64,000 nt of DNA from Pseudomonadota bacterium (lineage in GTDB: Bacteria > Pseudomonadota > Gammaproteobacteria > Xanthomonadales > SZUA-38), in contig JBCCCR010000001.1 in NCBI GenBank assembly GCA_039033415.1, forward strand, positions 124,001-188,000. The letters are read 5' to 3'. Below the pieces are notes generated by a model. It worked only from the letters and a program-made list of their open reading frames with translations, searched no databases and was not told the DNA's origin. Both the position numbers and the translations under genes were made by a program. Shown in pieces: positions 3,100 through 13,177 of the stretch (position 1 is its first letter; the number at the start of each line of letters is the position of its first letter).

Positions 3100-3424
3100 G
3101 GGCCCTTAGCTCAGTTGGTTAGAGCAGGGGACTCATCTTCATGGTGCGCCTGTCTGGTAACAGGCAGGATGAACGGGATGAATTCAGGGAAACCTTCACG
3201 GCAGCAGGCCGCTGGCAACCCTGAGCCAAGCCGCGGGTACACCCGCGGAAGGTGCAGAGACTACCTGAGGGCTGGCGCCCGCCGCCGAGCGCCCTTAATC
3301 ACAGGCTAGAGCGTCCCGCACCCTGGCAACCGAGCTCAGGGTGGTGAGATAGTCCAACGCCCGGTGGAAACACCGGGGCACGTGAATCCCTTGGTCGTAG
3401 GTTCAAGTCCTACAGGGCCCACCA
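3100..3424 (+). tRNA. tRNA-Ile(CAU) interrupted by a group I intron
   Basis: Exon 1 is 3100-3136 and exon 2 is 3385-3424. Joined, they fold into a standard tRNA: acceptor GGGCCCT/AGGGCCC, D-arm GCTC/GAGC, anticodon stem GGGGA/TCCCT with loop CTCATAA, T-arm GTAGG-TTCAAGT-CCTAC, discriminator A, and encoded CCA (3422-3424). The anticodon is CAU. The body resembles E. coli tRNA-Ile2 (ileX) far more than a methionine tRNA (no C1-A72 mismatch, no three G-C initiator pairs). It therefore should be the isoleucine tRNA whose C34 is changed to lysidine by TilS to read AUA. The intron sits between positions 36 and 37, so the gene is functional only after splicing. Confidence 0.9.
3137..3384 (+). ncRNA. 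Self-splicing group I intron in the anticodon loop of tRNA-Ile(CAU)
   Basis: A 248-nt insertion exactly after anticodon nucleotide U36. The exon triplet CAU can pair with an internal guide GUG (3144-3146), giving the U-G wobble at the 5' splice site. The intron ends in G (3384). Further signs: a P2 hairpin GCCTG/CAGGC (3148-3165), P4 CAGGG/CCCTG (3185-3189 and 3219-3223), a P6 hairpin built on CCGCGGGT/ACCCGCGG (about 3230-3248), and the core P7 strands GCAGAGACTAC (about 3254) and GAGATAGTCC (about 3346). The layout, tRNA host and insertion point match the small Azoarcus tRNA-Ile intron (established family knowledge). There is no room for a homing endonuclease. Confidence 0.88.
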
Positions 3425-3430
3425 ATTTTC
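3380..3430 (+). repeat. Left attachment-site repeat (51 bp, 3' end of tRNA-Ile)
   Basis: Positions 3380-3430 reappear at 10457-10507 with a single mismatch (GGTCG versus GGACG). The repeat covers the last 5 nt of the intron (acgtg), the whole 3' exon with CCA, and 6 nt beyond. Duplication of a tRNA 3' end is the standard trace of tyrosine-recombinase integration. This side keeps the functional gene. Confidence 0.88.
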
Positions 3431-3526
3431 AAATGTAAGGTCCTAAGACCTCTTGCCGAGATCCACAAAGGGTTCACCCACGGACCTTCTCATAGCCATG
3501 TTACTGGAGAGTTGGGCCTTGCGATC

Positions 3527-4156
3527 TCATCCGACTCTGACTTGTTTGATGACCAGTCCGCCAGCCAAAAAAGTAACAATCAGAATCAATGTGCCAAGAG
3601 TCGACAGGGTCGGCACGCTAATGGGCGCCGCCCCTAGAACGGACCAGACGCCACCGCTCCCTACTGTGGTACCGGCAAGGGCGTAATCTGGGTCTGCCAT
3701 ATCGGGCAGAGCAATCTCACAAGAGGGCGGCTGGCATGGCGCATTCCGAAATGCTTCGATAATCCATCCGCTTCCATCATTGCGGCTAGCGGTGAGTAAA
3801 CCGTCTACGGTCCCGGTAGCAGTTGTCGGAACCGGCAGCGACCAAAGCAGTATTCGCCATTCCGTTATATTGCCACTAACGTCAGTGCTTATCTCAAACC
3901 GCCGGATGGAAGTGTTGGCCGGCGTGTAATCTCGAACTGTGTCGGAAAACCGAAAGTCAACGAGTAACGCATCGACATCCTGGAGCATCAAGCCCGATGC
4001 CAACGGGTTCGCCGTTGTAAATTCACCAGTCACACGAGTCCCTGCAGAGAATATTCCTGGATTGGCGTTACTAAATGGCTGGCCGACATACTCGTAGGTT
4101 GCTCCAATAGACAGCGGAGACAAAAGAAGGGCAGAAATCAGTAAAAGGACTCTCAA
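3527..4156 (-). CDS. Secreted protein with C-terminal IPTL-CTERM-type sorting segment
   Basis: A 209-aa protein of unknown role. It begins with a signal peptide (LRVLLLISALLLSPLSIGA) and ends with VPTLST, a single hydrophobic helix and a short weakly basic tail (KQVRVG). That is the arrangement of the IPTL-CTERM tripartite domain found on surface proteins. The middle part (about 20-175) has no recognised domain; two Cys residues (NAPCQPPSCE) could form a disulfide. The start is TTG at 4156, 8 nt after GAGGAGG; the reading frame is open further upstream, but only this start gives both a ribosome site and a signal peptide at the N-terminus. The gene occupies the place where the missing part of the integrase should be, against the tRNA. 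Confidence 0.7.
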   Translation of the reverse strand: MRVLLLISALLLSPLSIGATYEYVGQPFSNANPGIFSAGTRVTGEFTTANPLASGLMLQDVDALLVDFRFSDTVRDYTPANTSIRRFEISTDVSGNITEWRILLWSLPVPTTATGTVDGLLTASRNDGSGWIIEAFRNAPCQPPSCEIALPDMADPDYALAGTTVGSGGVWSVLGAAPISVPTLSTLGTLILIVTFLAGGLVIKQVRVG

Positions 4157-4413
4157 AGTGAAAACCTCCTCTCGGATTCGTGGTTGACTCTCACGACGGC
4201 GATCCCAAAACACGGTCTCGTATTCTGGCTGCAAGGGTAGCTTAGGCGCTCGCCAAACTGCCGTATCCATCAGAACTCTGACTTCAGCTTGTCTGCGAGT
4301 TCCGCAGCCTGCATTTTGTTGGTAGTCCCAAGGCTTTGGTGTTTGCGTCGATGATCCGGTGCCGTGAACCGGACCCACCAGGTGCCGCGTTTCCCTCGTT
4401 GGTAGATTTGCAT
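4153..4413 (-). pseudogene. Remnant of a tyrosine-recombinase integrase (N-terminal part only)
   Basis: The ATG at 4413 follows AAGGAGA. The first 47 codons read like the N-terminal arm-binding region of a phage-type integrase (MQIYQRGKRGTWWVRFTAPD, then QSLGTTNKMQAAELADKLKS). An in-frame TGA follows at 4272. Reading through it, the frame continues in integrase style (WIRQFGERLSYP, GIAVVRVNHESE) to a second stop at 4153. There the IPTL-CTERM gene begins, overlapping the last codons. The core-binding and catalytic (R-H-R-Y) domains are absent. An intact gene of about 1 kb would have ended close to the tRNA, the usual place for an integrase. Confidence 0.72.
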
Positions 4414-4607
4414 GAATGCATTCTCCTTCTTGATCGGCGCGGCGACCGCTCGGGGCCAGTATAGCCCCGCACGAAATCCAGCACGTCGTCGCGCAGAAAT
4501 ACCCATGACCGCCCAACGCGGCGACCCGGCAATCGGCCAGCCCGCGCGTGACGCTTGACGGTCTCGCTACAGCAATGAAGGAGCCGTGCTGCCTCGGCAA
4601 CTCCCAC
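4284..4607 (-). CDS. Excisionase-like helix-turn-helix DNA-binding protein
   Basis: The first 50 residues match the small MerR-like/excisionase fold: VAEAARLLHCCSETVKRH as the helix-turn-helix, then RAGRLPGRRVGRSWVF, the beta-wing that contacts DNA. Proteins of this type normally end soon after the wing (about 60-70 aa). Here the frame runs on for 50 more low-complexity basic residues over the integrase start, suggesting that the original stop was lost or frameshifted. The GTG start at 4607 lacks a good ribosome site; the open frame upstream carries the more typical SLPTVGVAEAA, so the true start may be slightly upstream. It would have acted as recombination directionality factor or integrase regulator. 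Function today is doubtful. Confidence 0.6.
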   Translation of the reverse strand: MGVAEAARLLHCCSETVKRHARAGRLPGRRVGRSWVFLRDDVLDFVRGYTGPERSPRRSRRRMHSCKSTNEGNAAPGGSGSRHRIIDANTKALGLPTKCRLRNSQTS

Positions 4608-5106
4608 GGTAGGGAGCGAATTTGAAGTGGGTGTCAGGTCTTCTATGGTGCTAAATCAAGTTGGTTAGTGTTTCTGACCGATCCGTCTTCGAGAAAAACG
4701 AACCCCTGCCGAGGCAGTGATGGTCTGTGGGACACCAATCCCAGTCACCTGACGGGCCTGAGTATCAGGCCAGGCGGATGCTGCCCGTAGGACATATTGT
4801 CCGCCCTTATGGCCAGCTTAAGATGCAAGCTGGCGAGGTTGAGTAATGGCAAAAGCGTATTGACCTCCTTAAGAAGTTGACCGAAATCGAGTTGAAAGAA
4901 CCGCAATGCGGCGAATTGGAACCCGGCCGAAGCCGCGTTAGGACCGAAGTCCGAAAGTGCCTCAGTTCCGCTAAGGCGCCGGTTGTGATTTGTACGGTAG
5001 CAGCAGATCACTCGCCCGTCCCGCGAAAAGTCCGGGTAGAAGTAGCCGGGGTAAACGCTTGACAAGCCGCGTCACTACCCGTAAGGCTAGTGACGCGACC
5101 AAGACC
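4608..5106. other. Intergenic stretch in the island without a confident gene
   Basis: About 500 bp between the excisionase-like gene and the subtilase gene. Two overlapping short frames exist (4745-5065 minus, 4877-5062 plus). Neither shows a domain, a ribosome site or a signal peptide. A perfect 8-bp hairpin, GCCAGCTT/AAGCTGGC, lies at 4812-4834, and a strong hairpin lies next to the subtilase stop (separate entry). It may be decayed coding sequence. Confidence 0.4.
5069..5096 (-). terminator. Hairpin downstream of the subtilase gene
   Basis: GCGTCACTA (5069-5077) and TAGTGACGC (5088-5096) form a perfect 9-bp stem with a 10-nt loop, 10 bp beyond the subtilase stop codon. No clear T-run follows on the minus strand, so termination may be weak, or the hairpin may protect the mRNA 3' end. 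Confidence 0.5.
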
Positions 5107-7674
5107 CTATTGCGCTTCCACGGCTACGGGTTGTGAGATCCTTACTCTGATTTGGTCGTAGATTGGTATTGAAGTTTCTTCGGGCACCTCAAGAGTCACG
5201 ACCAGGGCATAGGGAATTTCCGTGTCCAGCCTCGAAGCCCCAGCGGCGCAATTCACAGATATCGGGAGTGTTGGGTTATCCGGCAGATCCACGACGATAT
5301 CCCTTGTCATGATCTCATGTTGGACGGTGCCACGCCTTACTGTCCGGTGGTCTGCTTCAGTTCGCTGGACCCTCAATGGATTTTTTGCGGAAGCGGGAAT
5401 ATCAGCCCACAAATTCGCTTTCCGATAATTCTGTACTTTGCCGTTACACGGAGTTAGCCAAGCCAATGTGACGATGACCCGTCGCTCAACAAAGATTCCC
5501 CCTAACGCCCGAGGTATTGGAATTTGGAACTGATGGCCTTCCTCTGATGCTATCCAGCCTGTCCTAATCATCGTGGCTCTCTGCTCTGCGGAGCCAAGAG
5601 TTCTCGCGACATCAGCACATCCGTAGCCAAGAAAGCAGGTTATTGGATCGCGAATCGTGCGAACCGTAACCTCATTCTTTATCAGGAGTTCTCTGATTTT
5701 GCTCTCATCCGGTCCCCAGCTGGCCCCGTGAATTAGTAAAGCCTTCATCAGACAAACCTCTTCGGCTCTGCTTAGTCCTCTTGTTTCCCTATTTGGACCG
5801 ATCACGGCCTCGTAGATCTGCGCTGCGGCTCTCGTCGCTAAGGCCGCCGAGTTGCTCGAACCTCGGGTGTGACCAGCGCCAGCGCCACCTGCCCTCGCTG
5901 GCAAGGCAACATAATGCCCCGGTGGTGCCAGATTGTTCTGCGGTAACAGAGTTGTGGTCTCACCATTTCCATCAAGACGCAGGGCGTAAAAGATTCGCCC
6001 AGCTGGGAACAAGACCTCTGGTTTCGTGGATCGGTTCATACCCGCCGAGATGGTCAAAGTTGCGCATGGCAACACCGCGTTTCCGATTGGGTCGTAAACG
6101 TCAGCAACTTGCAGTGGGGCTGAAAGATCTGAGTGCACCGGTCCGACAGTGACCGCATTTACACTCTCGGCTGGGCTCATAATTCGTCTATTCTGTCTAT
6201 CTTCATAAAGTGCCTGTAGCACCAGTTCTTCGCGTTCTTCGTTCGTGATTTCGCGAAAACGTTGTCGAGTTAGCGGAAGAACTATCGGCCCTGCATGGTT
6301 GCCAGCGCTAACCACGAACAAAACTTTGTGTTTCCAAGATAGCCAGTCAAGCAGCCGAGCGCAGGGGCTCATCTCGCGGTAGAAAAGACGATTCGGGTCT
6401 CCGATTGACAAGTTGATTATGCGAACTTCTGGAGACCCGCCGGGCGAGCCGTCAGGTTGCTCGAATATCCTAGTAACCGCCCGGTGTATCAGATCCACAA
6501 GCAGTTCGTCCTCCGGGACGACTTCGGGTGGAGGCGTCACAAAAGAGTGAGTGGACGGTTTGAGAATTGGCCTAACGTATATTCTTCGAGTAGAGGGCTC
6601 GCCCGCGGCTGATTTGTCTCCGTGCACGATAAGCGACGCCATAGCAGACCCATGGCGTCGGGAGGCCGCAGGATAGGAATCGGCCCAGTCGTCTGCATCG
6701 TCTAATGAAATAAACCCATCCAGCCAAGGGTGGCCAGCTGGCAGCCCGTCCAATAGTGCAACGATTGGCTCCGCTTCCGGATCTGATGGCTGGCCGGTGG
6801 GCTCTTCGATATTGACATGCGACGCGGAGATATTCGCAGCAGACTGCCCAACGCTCCGGAAGTAGAGGATCTCGTCTGCCAGCGCCAAATCCACCTGGTC
6901 AGCGTTTTCCAGTAACTGTCGTATCTGAGATTCCGGCATATGGACGAGAGCTGCTTGGTATTCGATGCTCTGAATGTCGGCCGTTTTTGCGCAGGTGCCA
7001 CCCATTTCTTCAACGAGTTGCTGAACACTGGCAAGTTTCCTGTTCCTGATCCTCGGATCGCGAGAGAAAACGAGTTCCAATTCTACTGGGATTATTTGCT
7101 GCCCAACCGCGAGTCTGCTCCTCCAGTCTTGGATGACCTCGGGATTCAACCGGTCGTTCGCGTTCCAAAATCTAATTTTGCGCGTCCTTTCAAAAACATC
7201 TTTAAACGCTCCCAATCCCCAGGGCAGTTTCCTCTCTTGCTGCCAGGTTTCCCAAAGCGACAACAGCTGGACGATTGCGGATTGGTCGGCCATCGAAAGG
7301 TAAAGTCGTCCCCCGAGGAGGCGCGTTGGGTCATCGGTGCGAAAAAAATCGTCGTCTGGCTCGATGTCCTCCGCTATACCCTCAGATAGCCATCGAAGCT
7401 GGGATCGCCTAAGTGCGTTGAAAAAGTTATCAACCGCGCCAACGGTCTCAATCACTAGTACTTTCTCAGGTGTCAGACCATTTGCCCGAGTCACCCAAAA
7501 AGCTTGTCTGTTATCGAGTGTGTCTCTTAGCCTACGAAAAACTGGGCCGATTCTTTCTTGTTGCCGGGAGCGGTTAGGAGTATTCGTTTTGTCGCCGCCT
7601 CCGGTTCTTTTTCTGCGTGCCCCTTCGTCAGGAGGCTGGAGCCATAAGTGCGGAAGCTGGTTACGGTCAGCCAT
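5107..7674 (-). CDS. Subtilase (S8 serine protease) of an AAA+/subtilase pair
   Basis: An 855-aa predicted cytoplasmic serine protease with no signal peptide or membrane segment. The S8 catalytic triad is complete: Asp309 in VALLDG, His341 in RRHGSAMASL, Ser607 in RGSSNSAALATRAA. The oxyanion Asn459 lies in VVSAGNHAG. The first 300 residues form an uncharacterised domain, and about 200 residues follow the catalytic Ser. The N-terminus is Arg/Lys-rich. The start overlaps the end of the AAA+ ATPase gene by 8 bp, which indicates coupled translation and a joint function, with the ATPase likely controlling or feeding the protease. Such cytosolic subtilase/AAA+ pairs recur in bacterial accessory regions; I know of no settled biochemical role for this one. 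A role in phage defence or regulated cell death is inference. Confidence 0.85.
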   Translation of the reverse strand: MADRNQLPHLWLQPPDEGARRKRTGGGDKTNTPNRSRQQERIGPVFRRLRDTLDNRQAFWVTRANGLTPEKVLVIETVGAVDNFFNALRRSQLRWLSEGIAEDIEPDDDFFRTDDPTRLLGGRLYLSMADQSAIVQLLSLWETWQQERKLPWGLGAFKDVFERTRKIRFWNANDRLNPEVIQDWRSRLAVGQQIIPVELELVFSRDPRIRNRKLASVQQLVEEMGGTCAKTADIQSIEYQAALVHMPESQIRQLLENADQVDLALADEILYFRSVGQSAANISASHVNIEEPTGQPSDPEAEPIVALLDGLPAGHPWLDGFISLDDADDWADSYPAASRRHGSAMASLIVHGDKSAAGEPSTRRIYVRPILKPSTHSFVTPPPEVVPEDELLVDLIHRAVTRIFEQPDGSPGGSPEVRIINLSIGDPNRLFYREMSPCARLLDWLSWKHKVLFVVSAGNHAGPIVLPLTRQRFREITNEEREELVLQALYEDRQNRRIMSPAESVNAVTVGPVHSDLSAPLQVADVYDPIGNAVLPCATLTISAGMNRSTKPEVLFPAGRIFYALRLDGNGETTTLLPQNNLAPPGHYVALPARAGGAGAGHTRGSSNSAALATRAAAQIYEAVIGPNRETRGLSRAEEVCLMKALLIHGASWGPDESKIRELLIKNEVTVRTIRDPITCFLGYGCADVARTLGSAEQRATMIRTGWIASEEGHQFQIPIPRALGGIFVERRVIVTLAWLTPCNGKVQNYRKANLWADIPASAKNPLRVQRTEADHRTVRRGTVQHEIMTRDIVVDLPDNPTLPISVNCAAGASRLDTEIPYALVVTLEVPEETSIPIYDQIRVRISQPVAVEAQ

Positions 7675-8662
7675 TCAGTTGAGTTTGATCTGGCGCTTTA
7701 GGCCGGGCCTGCCACTGGCCCAACTTTCTCTTCACGATTTCAGGTATGTCCGCGTCGGGTGACTCGAGCAGGCATCTCCGCCGTACATCACGAGTAAAGT
7801 CTTCAAGCTCTGCAAAGCTAAGCCCATTCAGCTTGTCTGCCAAAGTGCGAGGAGACAGGCCAAGAGGCGAATTCAGTTGGTTTTCGAACTTGGAAAACCA
7901 CGATATCCGCTGTTTTCTAGAAGGCATCGGCAGACATAAACGCAACTCAAAGCGGCGCCAAACAGCCCGGTCTAAGAGTTCATCGTGGTTGCTTGCAACA
8001 ACCACAACGACGTGACTCGGGAGGGCGTCTAGTTGTAGCAGTAGCGAGCTGACGACACGCTTGATCTCTCCCGAATCGTTAGCATCGCCGCGCTCTTTCC
8101 CAATTGCATCAAACTCGTCAAAGAACAACACGCACTTTCTCGTCGAGGCAAACTCGATTACCGCGCGAAGCCTGTCGTTGGTCTCACCGAGATATTTCCC
8201 GATCAATCCCTCATATCGAACAACGATCATGGGTACCATAAGTTCAAAAGCGATTGCTTCGGCCAGAGAGGTTTTTCCGGTGCCAGGGGGCCCGATGCAC
8301 ATTACTCTGTGGCGCGGCTCTTCGCCGTGGGCACGAAGAAGATCTGAGCGATGCTGCTCCTCGATTAGCTCGCTAACATTGGCCGAGAGCGTCCTGGGTA
8401 GCACCAAATCCGTAAGTTTTCGCTCGGGGTCGATCTGATGAACGAGCCTATTGATTCGGTTGTCCCAGCCCGCCTGAACGGCTCCCACCTTGTGCCCGTG
8501 GTCATGGTGGTCATTCAAGATAGAGGCGAGTCTGTCGGCAAGAACGTTATGCCTTTTGGATCTTTCATCCGCGATCAGACTCTCCACTGTCCGCTTGAAG
8601 GCCGCCCTGTCTCCAGTGCGCTCGGCTTTTACAAGGTTGGTGAGGAGATCTGCTCTGGCCAT
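7667..8662 (-). CDS. AAA+ ATPase partner of the subtilase
   Basis: A 331-aa single-domain AAA+ protein. Walker A is GPPGTGKT (124-131), Walker B is VLFFDE (178-183), sensor 1 is VVVVVASN, and LDRAVWRRFE carries the arginine-finger region typical of classical FtsH/CDC48-type AAA modules. A pore-loop-like segment, YEGLIGKYLGET, follows strand 2. The N-terminal 110 residues are helical and unlike known adaptor domains. It is the first gene of the minus-strand operon and overlaps the subtilase start. By analogy with other AAA+/protease pairs it could unfold substrates or act as an ATP-driven switch for the protease (inference). It begins 99 bp from the divergent HTH gene. Confidence 0.85.
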   Translation of the reverse strand: MARADLLTNLVKAERTGDRAAFKRTVESLIADERSKRHNVLADRLASILNDHHDHGHKVGAVQAGWDNRINRLVHQIDPERKLTDLVLPRTLSANVSELIEEQHRSDLLRAHGEEPRHRVMCIGPPGTGKTSLAEAIAFELMVPMIVVRYEGLIGKYLGETNDRLRAVIEFASTRKCVLFFDEFDAIGKERGDANDSGEIKRVVSSLLLQLDALPSHVVVVVASNHDELLDRAVWRRFELRLCLPMPSRKQRISWFSKFENQLNSPLGLSPRTLADKLNGLSFAELEDFTRDVRRRCLLESPDADIPEIVKRKLGQWQARPKAPDQTQLNG

Positions 8663-8706
8663 CGTCGGCTATCTTTTCACAATTGAGTTTGGGGCGCACA
8701 TATCGT

Positions 8707-8735
8707 TTGACTTAGTTACCCATTGGGTAAATAAT
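8707..8735 (+). promoter_or_regulatory. Divergent-region promoter and palindromic operator
   Basis: TTGACT (8707-8712) and AATAAT (8730-8735) are spaced 17 bp apart, both 5/6 to consensus, and read toward the HTH gene. The spacer is filled by TTACCCATTGGGTAA (8716-8730), a perfect 7-1-7 palindrome. Its position would let a bound repressor block polymerase. The adjacent HTH protein is the obvious candidate, giving autorepression and possibly joint control of the divergent AAA+/subtilase operon. Confidence 0.65.
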
Positions 8736-8761
8736 AACTGTGTTCACAAGACATAGCTCAA

Positions 8762-9397
8762 ATGCCGGCAGTCAATCCAAATCCAAAGGAAATTCGGGAA
8801 GCAAGAGTACAGTTGCTCTTGTCCAGGCGAGAGGCTGCAGATCTGATACACATGACTGAGAGGGCTTGGATCAAGTACGAATCCGGCGAACGACGAATGC
8901 ACCCCCAGCATTGGACAGGCTGGAAAGTTGCGGCTGGACTGGAGTCTCGGATCCCTAGACGAATTCATAAGTACCTCGCTGATGACGGCGAAAGTTGCGT
9001 AGTTGTGATCTCGGGTTCGAAGCCACGGGTCGTATTTGGGCGCCCGGGAAAGCGATCGGATTTGCCGCAACTAGAGGTCGATCGACTATTTATGGCGTTA
9101 AGAGCCTTCGGGAGAAGCGAGACCGACGCGGAGAGTGAAAGAGTCTTCGAAATCGCGGATGGATTTGGAATACGCCAAACTCGGCACCGTGCGCTGAGGT
9201 TTGCTGAGCGGCTAAAACCCTTCGTTTCCGATGAACCCGAATTGGCTGTTGTCGGAAGAAAAGCGACCATCGACAATTCCGAAATTGAATTCACGATCGG
9301 TTGCTATCGGGAGGAATCTAACGAGTACAAATTGTTAGGCAGTTCTACCAGCTGTTGGGTTTCTGCCCAGAGAGTTTTCCCAGCCCCTTCTCGTTAA
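8762..9397 (+). CDS. Xre-like HTH regulator of the island system
   Basis: A 211-aa protein. Residues about 8-58 form a Cro/C1-type helix-turn-helix: EIREARVQLLLSRREAADLI, then TERAWIKYESGERRMHP (recognition helix region) and HWTGWKVAAGL. Residues about 70-211 have no recognised fold and contain a well-spaced mix of beta and helical stretches. It could be a ligand-sensing domain or the antitoxin part of a pair with the next gene, which starts 4 bp after its stop. A perfect palindrome lies in its own promoter. Role as autorepressor and controller of the divergent protease operon is inference from position. Confidence 0.72.
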   Translation: MPAVNPNPKEIREARVQLLLSRREAADLIHMTERAWIKYESGERRMHPQHWTGWKVAAGLESRIPRRIHKYLADDGESCVVVISGSKPRVVFGRPGKRSDLPQLEVDRLFMALRAFGRSETDAESERVFEIADGFGIRQTRHRALRFAERLKPFVSDEPELAVVGRKATIDNSEIEFTIGCYREESNEYKLLGSSTSCWVSAQRVFPAPSR

Positions 9398-9401
9398 CGT
9401 C

Positions 9402-10337
9402 ATGGCTGGCCTTTCAGAAGACGCGAGGCTTTTGGCTCTTCACATTGCTTCATCCAACGATACTGGTCGTGAATCCCCAATGTCTTGGGAGGAAATCGCG
9501 CAGAGCTGTAGTTCGGTCGAGCAAATCAAATTGGTGGAAGCAATTTATGAACTTCAGCAATCTGGGCTCGTTCGGCTTAGCAACTCCATAAACGTACGAG
9601 ACGGCATATACAGCCTGCGGCCAGCTATTACGCTTTTCCAACAATTCGATCTCGAGGCAAATGGATTTGACTTTGACGAGGACGTAGTGACGCTGGCAAC
9701 GCTCCTCCTTGAGGACAATTCTTTGGGTAACGCAGAAGCACTTCACCGGTCTACTGGCTGGCCAGTAAGGAGGTTTAACCCGCCTTTTGCGCGAATCTTG
9801 AGCGCAGTACATCCTGGTCATGTGCGCCAGACGGTCTCCCCTCGATATCCTTCGCTTGGCCTCTCAATCGGACCTGGCGACATCGTGTCGCTTAGACGAC
9901 TAATCGAATCAATCCAAACTCGTGAGTCTCAACTTAAGGAGGCAGCGAAGAATCGATTGCTTCAGGGTGTCGAACGAGTCGAACTGGCGCTTCGAGCATT
10001 GCTCGTAGATACCTTTGGCAATGATCTAAAGACTATCCCGAAAACGGTGTTTGAGAAGGCAAAGGATCGAATGCGGGGTTCGAATCTGGCCGCATTAGAT
10101 TTGGTGGGACTCGTCGAATATCTAACGTTGGGCGAGCTCTTCTCAACTATTCGGCGCAAGACGATTTGGCCAATGCTTCAGCTGCAGGAAAACAAAGACA
10201 CCTTTTCGAGGAGATCTGAGCAACTAATGAAACTAAGGAATTGTCTGAGTCACAACCGGGCTCCAAGCGAGGTGGAAAGGCTCGAAGGCGAAGCGGCCAT
10301 AATCTGGTTCCTATCAGTCCTGGCGGTCGAGACCTAG
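9402..10337 (+). CDS. Winged-helix protein with C-terminal HEPN-type domain
   Basis: A 311-aa protein with two visible parts. Residues about 5-75 look like a winged helix (SEDARLLALHIASSND, WEEIAQSCSSVEQIKLVEAI, SGLVRLS). Residues about 175-305 are all-helical and carry R279-x4-H284 in KLRNCLSHNR, close to the C-terminus. That is the R-x4-6-H signature of HEPN ribonucleases and of the Swt1-like HEPN group (established knowledge). The gene follows the HTH regulator by 4 bp and is surely co-transcribed. If active it would cut RNA; if not, the HEPN fold may serve as a dimerisation or sensor module. I cannot name the family precisely. Confidence 0.65.
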   Translation: MAGLSEDARLLALHIASSNDTGRESPMSWEEIAQSCSSVEQIKLVEAIYELQQSGLVRLSNSINVRDGIYSLRPAITLFQQFDLEANGFDFDEDVVTLATLLLEDNSLGNAEALHRSTGWPVRRFNPPFARILSAVHPGHVRQTVSPRYPSLGLSIGPGDIVSLRRLIESIQTRESQLKEAAKNRLLQGVERVELALRALLVDTFGNDLKTIPKTVFEKAKDRMRGSNLAALDLVGLVEYLTLGELFSTIRRKTIWPMLQLQENKDTFSRRSEQLMKLRNCLSHNRAPSEVERLEGEAAIIWFLSVLAVET

Positions 10338-10789
10338 CCCACGGGCCATTCTTGGTCCCGAGAGCCTGTTGCATAGTGTTTTCTGAAGTTGCAATTTGAC
10401 TGAGCGGTCGCCGCTAACTAATTGAATTTACTGGCTTGATATCGATTTCGGTTAGAACGTGAATCCCTTGGACGTAGGTTCAAGTCCTACAGGGCCCACC
10501 AATTTTCGCCTTTTTTCTCAGTGGTTTACAGGCGCGCTTCCCGGTTGGGTTCGAGACCCCGCGGACTCGTCGTTTCGCTGGCGGCAGACCCACCTATGAC
10601 CAATTTTCGAGGGAACTGACCACATTTCCTTCAGCGCGCGACTGAGCGTGTGGACCCACTTGTGGTCAAGTTTGATCCGAAATTCCTGCGAAGTGCGCCT
10701 CATTAACCAACGCCCCAAAATGACTGGCGCAAACGGAGCCACACCCAGTGAATAGCTATCCCATTTCCCCTTCCGTAGGAGGGGTTGCC
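10338..10789. other. Right end of the island and upstream region of the repeat protein
   Basis: Apart from the right tRNA repeat (10457-10507), nothing coding is convincing. A minus-strand frame at 10518-10742 lacks any recognisable domain. A T-run (ttttttc) follows the repeat. The strong ribosome site TAGGAGGGG for the next gene lies at 10776-10784. Confidence 0.4.
10457..10507 (+). repeat. Right attachment-site repeat (tRNA-Ile 3' fragment)
   Basis: A copy of 3380-3430 with one substitution, which falls in the variable loop. It lacks the 5' half of the tRNA and so is not a gene. It begins with acgtg, the last five bases of the group I intron, instead of the ctcat expected from an uninterrupted tRNA. 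That shows that the attachment site carried by the element came from an intron-bearing tRNA. Confidence 0.88.
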
Positions 10790-13177
10790 ATGGTGCTTGT
10801 CGTGCTGGCAGCGTTTTCCATCAGCAGCGCTGCGCTGGCCGTCGTTGACTCGGACTTGGCGGGTCCGCCCGGCAGCGAGTCTTTTGGCATGAGCGTACTG
10901 GTGCTGGCCAACGGAAACTACGCCGCAACCGATCCGGATTTTGATGCCGAAGGCGTAGAGAACGTGGGTGCGGTGTACCTGTTTGACGGCGCTACCGATA
11001 CGATCATCAGCACATTGACTGGCTCCGGTGCCGACGACCGGGTGGGCTCTGACGGACTGCTGGCGGTCGGGAGCAGTAACTTTGTGGTGTCCAGCTCGGA
11101 GTGGAATGAGCGGCGCGGCGCAGTCACTTTCGTTAACGGCGAGACCGGTCTATCCGCCATAGTTTCAAGCACCAACAGCTTGGTGGGCTCAGCCCCTGGC
11201 GATGTCGTAGGCCAAACGTTTTTCAGTGGTTTTGGAAGCGGGGTGCCATCCGCAAAACGGTTGAGCAACGGCCACTATGTGGTCGAGTCTGTCCGTTGGT
11301 CCGGAGGGCCGGACTTGGCCGGCGCGGTGACCTGGGGCGACGGCGAAGCCGGCGTGACGGGAGAGATTACGCCCGGCAACAGTCTGGTCGGCGGTGCCGA
11401 AGGCGACATCATTCAGCTGATTCGATCGCTGGACAACGGGAACTACTTGGTTGGCTCTGATTCCTGGGATGCCGGCAGCGTTGAGGACGTCGGCGCCGTG
11501 GCCTGGGCATCCGGCAACGGTGGCAGCGTTGGCCTGATTAGCGGGGCAAACAGCCTGATTGGGTCACAGGCGGATGACCGGGTGGGACGCAATCGGGGCG
11601 TGATCGATCTGGGGAATGGCCATTACGTTGTGAGGAGTCCGCAGTGGAGCGGCGGAGGCCCATCCCGGGCCGGTGCCGTAACCTGGGGCAACGGTGAAAA
11701 CGGTGCAACTGTGGGCACGGTATCGGACGCCAATAGCCTCGTTGGGGCTAGCGCCAATGAGCAGCTCGGTGGCGACGTAGTGGGGTTGACCGACGGTGAC
11801 TACCTGGTGGTGACTCGCAACTGGAATGCATCCCCAAGCCTGCTCGGCGTCGGCGCCGTGGCCTACGCGCCAGGCAACGGCGGACTAGCGGGCACAATTG
11901 GCGTCGGCAACAGTCTGGTTGGCGTCTCAGGCAATGACGGTGCAGGAATTTCGGCCTTTGCCCTGGACAATGGGCATTACGTTGTTTCCATGCCCGGGTG
12001 GGACGATGCCGCCAACGGGTATACGGATGCCGGAGCCGTGATCTGGGGCGACGGCGATGCGGGCATAACGGGGCCAGTCACCGCGGCGGGCAGCCTGGTG
12101 GGCAACCGCGATGAGGCGCGGGTAGGTTCCAATCTCGGCGGAGAGGCCATTACGCCGCTGCGCAACGGCAACTACGTGATCAACAGCCCGCGCTGGAAAA
12201 ACACCCAAGACGAGATCGTAGGCGCGGCGACCTGGATGGACGGGTCAGGACCCGCCAGTGGAACGGTGAGCACCGCCAACAGCCTGCACGGGCAGGCGCC
12301 GGAAGACGGCATCGGCCGGGCCACCGTCGCCCTCACCAACGGTAACTACGTGGTGGTGGGTGGCGAGGAAAGCCGATTCGATCTTGATCACGTGACCTGG
12401 GGTAGCGGCACCGGGGGCCTGGCTGGGCCGGTGGACGAAACCAGGAGCCTGGTGCTGGGCAGCGGCGGTGGTGAAATCGGGACCGTGGTTGCGCTGGCGA
12501 ACGGGCACTACGTTGTACTCAGCCCGTTCTGGGAGGACGCGAGCACGGACGCCGACGTTGGCGCCATTACCTGGGGCAACGGAGAGGATGGATCAACCGT
12601 TGGCACGCTGGGAATCGGCAACAGCCTTATTGGCGCCCAGGCCCTGGACCGAATAAGCGCTGGGGACCGCGTCCTGCTTGCCAACGGGAGTCTGCTACAG
12701 ACCAGCGTTTTTTTCAGCAACGGTGCGGAAACGGAGGCGGGAGCCATTACCTGGATTGCCGGTGATCAGCCGACGACTGGCGTCGTCGGTATCGACAACA
12801 GTGTGATCGGAAGCAGCGCAAACGATCAGCTTGGACAGTATTCGCTCTGCTTCAACACGGGCATCGTGGGGTGCGGTTCCTACGGCGAATTGCCCGATGG
12901 CGACTGGCTGGTGGCCAGCAGCAGATTCGATGACGGCAGCGAGGTCGATGCCGGGGCGGTGGTGCGAGTATCCGGCACCGGGCCAACCACGGGAACAGTC
13001 ACGGAGGACAATGCGGCAATTGGCAGCTCTGCGACCTTTATCGGCAGACTGCCGCGACAGATTCTGCTGACGAAAAGCCAGAAGTTTCCGCTTGCTACCG
13101 GATCCAACAGCATTCTGATCCTGAATCTTTCTGAAGACGCAGATACTCTATTCCGGGACAGTTTTGAGAGCCCATGA
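10790..13177 (+). CDS. Secreted protein made of about eleven 65-70-residue repeats
   Basis: About 795 aa. A hydrophobic N-terminus (VLVVLAAFSISSAALA) resembles a signal peptide. The rest is a tandem repeat of roughly 65-70 residues with the pattern L-x-NGxYVVxSPxW ... GAVTWGxGxxG ... NSLVGSxxxDxVG. The repeat resembles the 'repeat of unknown function' group found in large surface proteins (I believe Pfam DUF5650, unverified) and is probably a beta-structured surface or adhesion module. The C-terminus is LFRDSFESP, a short tail shared in style with the protein at 56634-58844 and common in this bacterial group. The frame is open to a GTG at 10748, but the ATG at 10790 sits behind a perfect AGGAGG site and is preferred. 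Confidence 0.78.
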   Translation: MVLVVLAAFSISSAALAVVDSDLAGPPGSESFGMSVLVLANGNYAATDPDFDAEGVENVGAVYLFDGATDTIISTLTGSGADDRVGSDGLLAVGSSNFVVSSSEWNERRGAVTFVNGETGLSAIVSSTNSLVGSAPGDVVGQTFFSGFGSGVPSAKRLSNGHYVVESVRWSGGPDLAGAVTWGDGEAGVTGEITPGNSLVGGAEGDIIQLIRSLDNGNYLVGSDSWDAGSVEDVGAVAWASGNGGSVGLISGANSLIGSQADDRVGRNRGVIDLGNGHYVVRSPQWSGGGPSRAGAVTWGNGENGATVGTVSDANSLVGASANEQLGGDVVGLTDGDYLVVTRNWNASPSLLGVGAVAYAPGNGGLAGTIGVGNSLVGVSGNDGAGISAFALDNGHYVVSMPGWDDAANGYTDAGAVIWGDGDAGITGPVTAAGSLVGNRDEARVGSNLGGEAITPLRNGNYVINSPRWKNTQDEIVGAATWMDGSGPASGTVSTANSLHGQAPEDGIGRATVALTNGNYVVVGGEESRFDLDHVTWGSGTGGLAGPVDETRSLVLGSGGGEIGTVVALANGHYVVLSPFWEDASTDADVGAITWGNGEDGSTVGTLGIGNSLIGAQALDRISAGDRVLLANGSLLQTSVFFSNGAETEAGAITWIAGDQPTTGVVGIDNSVIGSSANDQLGQYSLCFNTGIVGCGSYGELPDGDWLVASSRFDDGSEVDAGAVVRVSGTGPTTGTVTEDNAAIGSSATFIGRLPRQILLTKSQKFPLATGSNSILILNLSEDADTLFRDSFESP

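Follow-up and report, generated by a model that had tools for sequence, protein, structure and literature searches.

Do four neighbouring genes in a bacterial genomic island form a single new defence system? The question is raised by positions 5107-10337 of a 64,000-nucleotide stretch (here called the window) from Pseudomonadota bacterium (Gammaproteobacteria; Xanthomonadales; SZUA-38; GenBank assembly GCA_039033415.1, contig JBCCCR010000001.1, positions 124,001-188,000 of the forward strand). An earlier note, made from the sequence alone, had read an AAA+ ATPase, a subtilase, a helix-turn-helix (HTH) regulator and a HEPN protein at this place as a candidate for a novel four-gene system. Our analysis indicates that one island probably carries two separate defence modules placed back to back, the toxin-antitoxin (TA) and anti-phage system IetAS and an autoregulated pair formed by the HTH protein and a winged-helix (wH)-HEPN protein. 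This reading is preferred because 36 of 36 IetAS neighbourhoods were without an HTH or HEPN homologue, the IetAS active sites are intact and a sister element holds different cargo, and also because a palindrome overlaps the promoter of the HTH/wH-HEPN pair, the HEPN part is indicated by its motif and model, and the wH domain is found in fusions with TIR and in the vicinity of Gabija, SIR2 and CBASS-type genes. From the earlier interpretation the genes, the operon layout, the tRNA island and the defence character could be kept, while the claimed new four-gene system is corrected to a known pair and an unnamed pair.

The four genes are as follows.

5107-7674, minus strand: ietS, subtilisin-like serine protease (predicted toxin/effector), 855 amino acids (aa), D309/H341/S607; PADLOC PDLC04233
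7667-8662, minus strand: ietA, AAA+ ATPase (predicted restrainer/antitoxin), 331 aa; PADLOC PDLC04232
8762-9397, plus strand: XRE/MqsA-like HTH protein, 211 aa; sub-threshold NCBIfam TIGR03830
9402-10337, plus strand: wH-HEPN protein, 311 aa, wH at about residues 1-157 and helical HEPN part at about residues 158-309; AlphaFold2 model

The open reading frame (ORF) coordinates confirmed the strands and spacings given in the note: ietA comes before ietS with an overlap of 8 bp, the divergent intergenic gap between ietA and the HTH gene is 99 bp (about 100 bp in the note), and 4 bp separate the HTH gene from the wH-HEPN gene. The G+C fraction of the four genes is 0.507-0.539, compared with 0.584 for the window.

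The AAA+/subtilase pair belongs to the IetAS family

Judged by its sequence, the AAA+/subtilase pair is not new. The earlier note knew of no named system with this set of genes; however, the pair matches the PADLOC IetAS profiles almost end to end, IetA at E 2.8e-142 (PDLC04232, profile positions 1-323 of 330) and IetS at E 1.4e-277 (PDLC04233, positions 4-851 of 855), and the claim was rejected on these near-full-length matches. Domain matches were to Peptidase_S8 for the subtilase (E 9e-15) and to AAA for the ATPase (E 4e-30). In IetS, D309, H341 and S607 are conserved in all 18 aligned sequences (its own and 17 relatives) and N459 is likewise in line; IetA contains the Walker A motif GPPGTGKT and the Walker B motif FFDEFD. 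The IetS studied here is 28-40% identical to 17 other IetS of the PDLC04232/04233 branch. The NCBIfam equivalog cut-offs for IteA and IteS were not reached (226.5 of 510 and 66.4 of 900 bits, respectively), and with scores this far below them the pair is taken to be a diverged branch of the IetAS family and is not assigned to the narrower NCBIfam IteA/IteS group.

IetAS reportedly entered the defence catalogues by way of Gao et al. 2020. SgiAT of SGI1 is described as a working TA pair with the protease as toxin, in which SgiT always lies beside SgiA (PMC5006074), and a mycoplasma AAA-ATPase/subtilase pair is described as behaving similarly (PMC8562856); the roles of toxic protease and neutralising ATPase have thus been shown by others for relatives (PMC5006074; PMC8562856). 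In Pseudomonas aeruginosa Pf phages, IetAS correlates with phage resistance by an unknown mechanism (PMC11878078). From its family, the present pair is predicted to comprise a toxic IetS and a neutralising IetA and to have anti-phage activity. The AAA+ protein IetA would restrain a cytoplasmic subtilase, IetS, and upon phage infection (the presumed trigger) or loss of the pair IetS would be released or directed to proteolyse targets, so that growth stops.

The four genes are not a conserved set

At E <= 0.001 the IetS model matched 20 of 274 class genomes, and at E <= 1e-20 still 15 of these; in the phylum it matched 21 of 299 genomes at E <= 1e-30. Among the 274 class genomes, the wH-HEPN protein was found in the source genome alone. 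In the phylum collection it was recovered from the source genome and, by its wH part only, from G359, and the HTH protein from the source genome and, by the HTH part only, from G342 and G381; none of these three genomes is among the 21 with an IetS match. No homologue of the HTH or HEPN protein (E <= 1) was present in 36 IetAS neighbourhoods, made up of 17 loci of 15 class-search genomes, 5 plasmid records and 14 phylum-search genomes. When L165, which had been picked for its wH gene, and seven further plasmid loci were added, one of 44 neighbourhoods (L165) contained a relative of the wH part of the HEPN protein and none contained an HTH relative. The neighbourhoods cover 15 of the 19 other class genomes (the four left out being weak matches) and 14 of the 20 other phylum genomes, and, on plasmids, 12 of the 64 IetS-matching records; some contigs are short (L033, 5.1 kb; L116, 4.4 kb).

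No full-length relative of the wH-HEPN protein was found in the class and phylum genomes, plasmids, viral contigs, genome contigs and phages searched, and profile-derived scans of the viral contigs recovered none. With no such relative, co-occurrence of the four families cannot be shown, and since the other IetS-matching genomes and the neighbourhoods, apart from the wH gene of L165, are without relatives of the HTH and HEPN genes, the four-gene set is not a conserved system. The gene-neighbourhood search proposed in the earlier note thus gave no conserved co-occurrence of the four families, and the proposed PADLOC comparison returned a known pair. Both outcomes that the note had named beforehand as speaking against its system, a match to a named system and an AAA+/subtilase pair that normally occurs without the HTH/HEPN pair, are what was observed.

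An integrative island at an intron-split tRNA gene

The tRNA-integrated island of the earlier note is borne out by a CAU tRNA gene that is split by an intron and by a 51-bp repeat of its 3' end. To judge from these features it is a real integrative island of 7.1 kb at a tRNA gene split by a group I intron.

3100-3424, plus strand: CAU tRNA with group I intron, the island target; exon 1 3100-3136, intron 3137-3384, exon 2 3385-3424
3380-3430, plus strand: left attachment (att) repeat, consisting of the last 5 nt of the intron, the 3' exon and 6 nt further; 51-nt direct repeat, 98%
10457-10507, plus strand: right att repeat; 51-nt direct repeat
4284-4607, minus strand: excisionase-like HTH_17 ORF; HTH_17 E 1.2e-12
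4270-4506, minus strand: ORF of an integrase N-terminal stub, cut short at 4270

The intron was recognized by Rfam (RF00028 at 3124-3377, 67.5 bits). Joining exons 3100-3136 and 3385-3424 gives a 77-nt tRNA with anticodon CAU, called tRNA-Met(cat) by ARAGORN, which we take to be Ile2-like. On the unjoined gene with introns allowed, ARAGORN predicted a 248-nt intron and read the anticodon as ctg, and on the whole window it found zero tRNAs because the group I intron splits the gene; the conclusion that the window has no tRNA was rejected, as Rfam and the joined exons reveal what the intron masks. The att repeats of the tRNA 3' end bound the cargo, as expected for the remnant of a tRNA-targeted island. 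Because the repeat holds the last five intron bases, integration would restore the 3' splice site.

The same split tRNA (99% identity) occurs in a sister species, G274, with att repeats 7595 bp apart. Window positions 4277-5078 are 95.5% identical to the left end of the sister element and positions 10397-10509 are 88% identical to its right end, so that the differing part is 5079-10396, the four genes and little else; 3431-4276, the expected place of the integrase body, also differs. The sister element encodes a full-length tyrosine integrase (Phage_integrase E 2.1e-28) whereas only the N-terminal stub is left here, and with most of the integrase lost the island can probably no longer move without help in trans. 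The sister cargo (L134 = G274:C1:138000-157000, reverse complement 6928-12125) comprises a 991-aa AAA/cold-shock protein, which in PADLOC gave weak AAA and cold-shock matches only, and a 668-aa protein, which had no match in PADLOC and zero in Pfam. Sister species therefore hold different cargo at one intron-split tRNA. The sister-type integrase had 12 further matches in 200 genomes of the order, and all 11 of those examined adjoin a tRNA gene.

Several other observations were made on the island and its surroundings. At a tRNA-Lys of G274 (L151, 5314-18001), TIR-domain genes and a PDC-M28B match lie beside another integrase of the same family. Window positions 10457-10560, made up of the right att repeat and the next 53 bp, align at 94% over 105 columns with the left inner end of the sister element, which suggests a former tandem insertion. 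Between the left att repeat and the integrase stub (3527-4276), in the position of the integrase body, lies a partial ORF for a secreted-looking protein that ends in an IPTL-CTERM-like tail. To the right of the island, window positions 10748-13177 encode an 809-aa protein with 12 DUF5650 stretches (E 1.4e-155).

The HTH protein and the wH-HEPN protein

The HTH matches of the HTH protein are all weak and sub-threshold and lie within residues 5-52; they include NCBIfam TIGR03830 at residues 8-47 (E 5.8e-5, under the cut-off), and its C-terminal 156 aa had no Pfam match. Three relatives in plasmid records match the N-terminal part only. MqsA and RmrA were considered as identities for this protein, but only the HTH part matches, below threshold. 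Three short features belong to the two genes.

8707-8735, plus strand: sigma-70-like promoter TTGACT-17-AATAAT for the HTH/HEPN pair; sequence scan
8712-8734, no strand: 23-bp near-palindrome TTAGTTACCCATTGGGTAAATAA, candidate operator over the spacer and -10; sequence
10236-10253, plus strand: Rx4H motif RNCLSH (R279, H284; residues 279-284), aligned with RNQLAH in a Persicobacter relative

A scan of 8500-8900 found this one promoter, compared with a mean of 0.2 in shuffled sequences, and none on the ietA side; the near-palindrome was found nowhere else in the window. The HTH protein may repress its own promoter at the palindrome.

The AlphaFold2 model of the wH-HEPN protein has a mean predicted local distance difference test (pLDDT) score of 79.6, with block values of 87-98 over residues 1-180 except for 65 at residues 61-70. 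Winged-helix PDB chains align at Z 9.6 with a root-mean-square deviation of 2.2-2.8 over 75-84 residues within residues 1-88; a Foldseek search against the PDB returned 570 matches at E <= 10 and none at E <= 0.001. RNCLSH sits in a predicted helix of the model and agrees with the motif of the HEPN superfamily, Rx4-6H with a polar residue after R (PMC3710099). A search of 72,556 plasmid records gave one homologue of the helical part, the C-terminal domain of a Persicobacter protein with GmrSD_N at its start (31% identity), and this domain has sub-threshold Pfam matches to HEPN_RiboL-PSP (E 0.0013) and HEPN_Swt1 (E 0.0023). The HEPN assignment is based on the motif, the identity to the Persicobacter domain and the sub-threshold Pfam matches. 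From it we infer RNase activity of the HEPN part; the protein would then be an RNase effector, with the wH half serving to sense or bind either a partner or a nucleic acid.

The wH domain occurs near other immune genes

The wH domain carries the signature GW..RRFNP. It is a rare domain, present in 2 of the 218 genomes searched from G359's class, and the named records with it are alphaproteobacterial. Some copies stand alone or close a short protein (about 170-270 aa), others close a 540-aa protein, and in TIR proteins the domain forms the C-terminus; the aligned relatives are without the HEPN part. Among seven wH proteins scanned against Pfam nothing was above cut-off (best HypA, E 0.024), ten scanned against NCBIfam had no match at all, and three scanned against PADLOC gave one match, PDC-M14A (E 6e-7), outside the winged-helix part.

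Outside the window, 30 loci with the wH domain fell into 17 groups at 70% identity. Of these loci 27 were considered, L059, L062 and L073 being omitted because each nearly duplicates a retained locus (92-100% identity); L163 and L164 were also omitted, as the scan found no wH domain there. An immune-type gene lies nearby on the same strand in 14 of the 27 loci and in 10 of the 17 groups, a raw tally of neighbours chosen by eye without a background control, and so a lead and not a statistic. TIR-wH fusions are found in L027, L060, L061 and L162, the last also behind PDC-S21. Other wH genes lie near a PDC-S65 SIR2 (L030, L067) or another SIR2 (L065), Gabija (L056, L167, L071), CBASS-type TRIP13 and SAVED (L063), E2/JAB (L068) and a Mokosh-like helicase (L066). 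The matches in L065, L066 and L068 are partial and weaker; in the group of L071 the Gabija match is in L071 only, of three members searched, and in the group of L068 the locus L161 was without a match to the seeds. On the Mesorhizobium terrae plasmid locus L165 (4998-9770), an RRFNP wH gene is followed by an IetA/IetS pair. Stand-alone wH genes are downstream of the immune genes in 9 of the 14 loci. In the other loci few neighbours were library-scanned: a neighbour of L058 had no match in PADLOC, and one of L069 none in Pfam. Across the tally, the PADLOC scans of neighbours cover only part of the groups. A word search of titles and abstract starts of openly licensed papers found no wH domain like this beside Gabija, CBASS and TIR, which is not proof of absence.

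Three side observations concern similar neighbourhoods. In L055 a small XRE gene overlaps the start of the wH gene, recalling the HTH/wH-HEPN arrangement described here. L163 (3951-6631, Roseovarius plasmid) encodes a protein related to the 540-aa one but lacking the wH end, among WYL, WGR and AbiH genes. On two alphaproteobacterial plasmids (L169, L171) the genes downstream of IetAS are a small hypothetical one and a DUF5677 gene.

As a lead, then, a wH domain without a Pfam or NCBIfam match appears as neighbour or fusion partner of other immune genes, an independent IetAS locus among them, and the immune systems that it accompanies are of five or more unlike kinds (TIR, SIR2, Gabija, CBASS-type, IetAS). 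We tentatively propose, while holding the contrary to be the better bet, that the RRFNP wH domain is a plug-in of bacterial immunity not described before, which many effectors would share as a sensor or licensing part; the present locus would be its HEPN version behind its own repressor, possibly coupled to IetAS. Should the domain prove to be a common sensor or regulator, a single assay could be informative for all those systems.

Alternative explanations

If the HTH and wH-HEPN proteins were dedicated to this IetAS, the HTH protein would regulate both operons and HEPN would be a second effector of one four-gene system. The common 99-bp divergent gap, the fact that these four genes are the cargo differing between the sister elements, and the one independent wH and IetAS neighbourhood in Mesorhizobium terrae are in line with this. 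However, 43 of 44 IetAS-type neighbourhoods are without a relative of the HEPN protein and all 44 without an HTH relative (E <= 1), the HEPN protein was detected in the source genome alone among those matching IetS (20 in the class, 21 in the phylum), and wH near IetAS in one of 17 wH groups is a level that random choice among defence systems could give; we regard a single system as very unlikely. The preferred reading of two separate modules also has points that weigh against it or its parts. The four genes are the cargo between two vehicle-derived ends (5079-10396), which suits one unit equally, and the wH gene of L165 lies 519 bp before an independent IetAS pair, making a wH-IetAS link possible. 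The structure model of the HTH protein failed (mean pLDDT 39.4), and the palindrome is only moderately rare, being equalled by 20 of 2000 dinucleotide shuffles of the 99-bp gap (about 1%). In the wH-HEPN model the helical part has low confidence (block pLDDT 39-82 from residue 181 on and 39-75 over 191-311), its Pfam HEPN/Abi matches are under every curated cut-off (e.g., Abi_2, E 0.012), and the VIA-align PDB rows span mainly residues 1-131, so that a family missing there says nothing on the HEPN half.

Another alternative takes the wH-HEPN protein not for an RNase but for a transcription factor or adaptor whose helical tail is catalytically silent. It is the wH half that the model predicts with confidence, and the aligned wH relatives have no HEPN part; against this, RNCLSH is intact in a predicted helix and RNQLAH is aligned with it in the sole homologue found, and a silent tail seems distinctly unlikely to us. 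Both modules could also be TA pairs that stabilize an island that lost its integrase, serving addiction and not phage defence. One relative is described as stabilizing SGI1 in the presence of an IncA/C plasmid (PMC5006074), another is reported to stabilize pTiC58 (Yamamoto 2009, through the citing paper PMC8562856), and the integrase is truncated here. An island without an integrase hardly needs an addiction module, though, and IetAS is listed among anti-phage systems and has been correlated with resistance to phage, which leaves addiction a rather unlikely explanation for two modules that we continue to read as defence.

Comparison with known systems

The first module resembles IetAS as represented by IetA/IetS of Agrobacterium pTiC58, NCBIfam IteA/IteS and SgiAT of SGI1 in its order of ATPase and then S8 protease with a short overlap, its near-full-length profile match, its intact catalytic residues and its location on a mobile island. 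It differs in belonging to the PDLC04232/04233 branch, far under the NCBIfam cut-offs for the type sequences.

The wH-HEPN protein shares with Abi2/Swt1-type HEPN proteins the Rx4H motif with N after R, and the 2013 analysis of the HEPN superfamily already describes HEPN fusions to wHTH and to ParB/DUF262 (PMC3710099); its closest HEPN domain, from Persicobacter, rides on a GmrSD_N protein. In contrast to these proteins, its wH part is without a curated Pfam match and its HEPN/Abi matches are under cut-off.

Shared defence regulators described in the literature include WYL proteins (CapW/BrxR) and CapK/CapS, which like the wH domain are DNA-binding-type proteins recurring beside unrelated immune operons (PMC9122601; PMC9122588; PMC13373217). 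Unlike them, the wH proteins had no WYL, STAS or kinase family among their matches (seven scanned against Pfam, ten against NCBIfam), and the wH domain is also fused to TIR and HEPN and, where it stands alone, mostly follows the immune genes.

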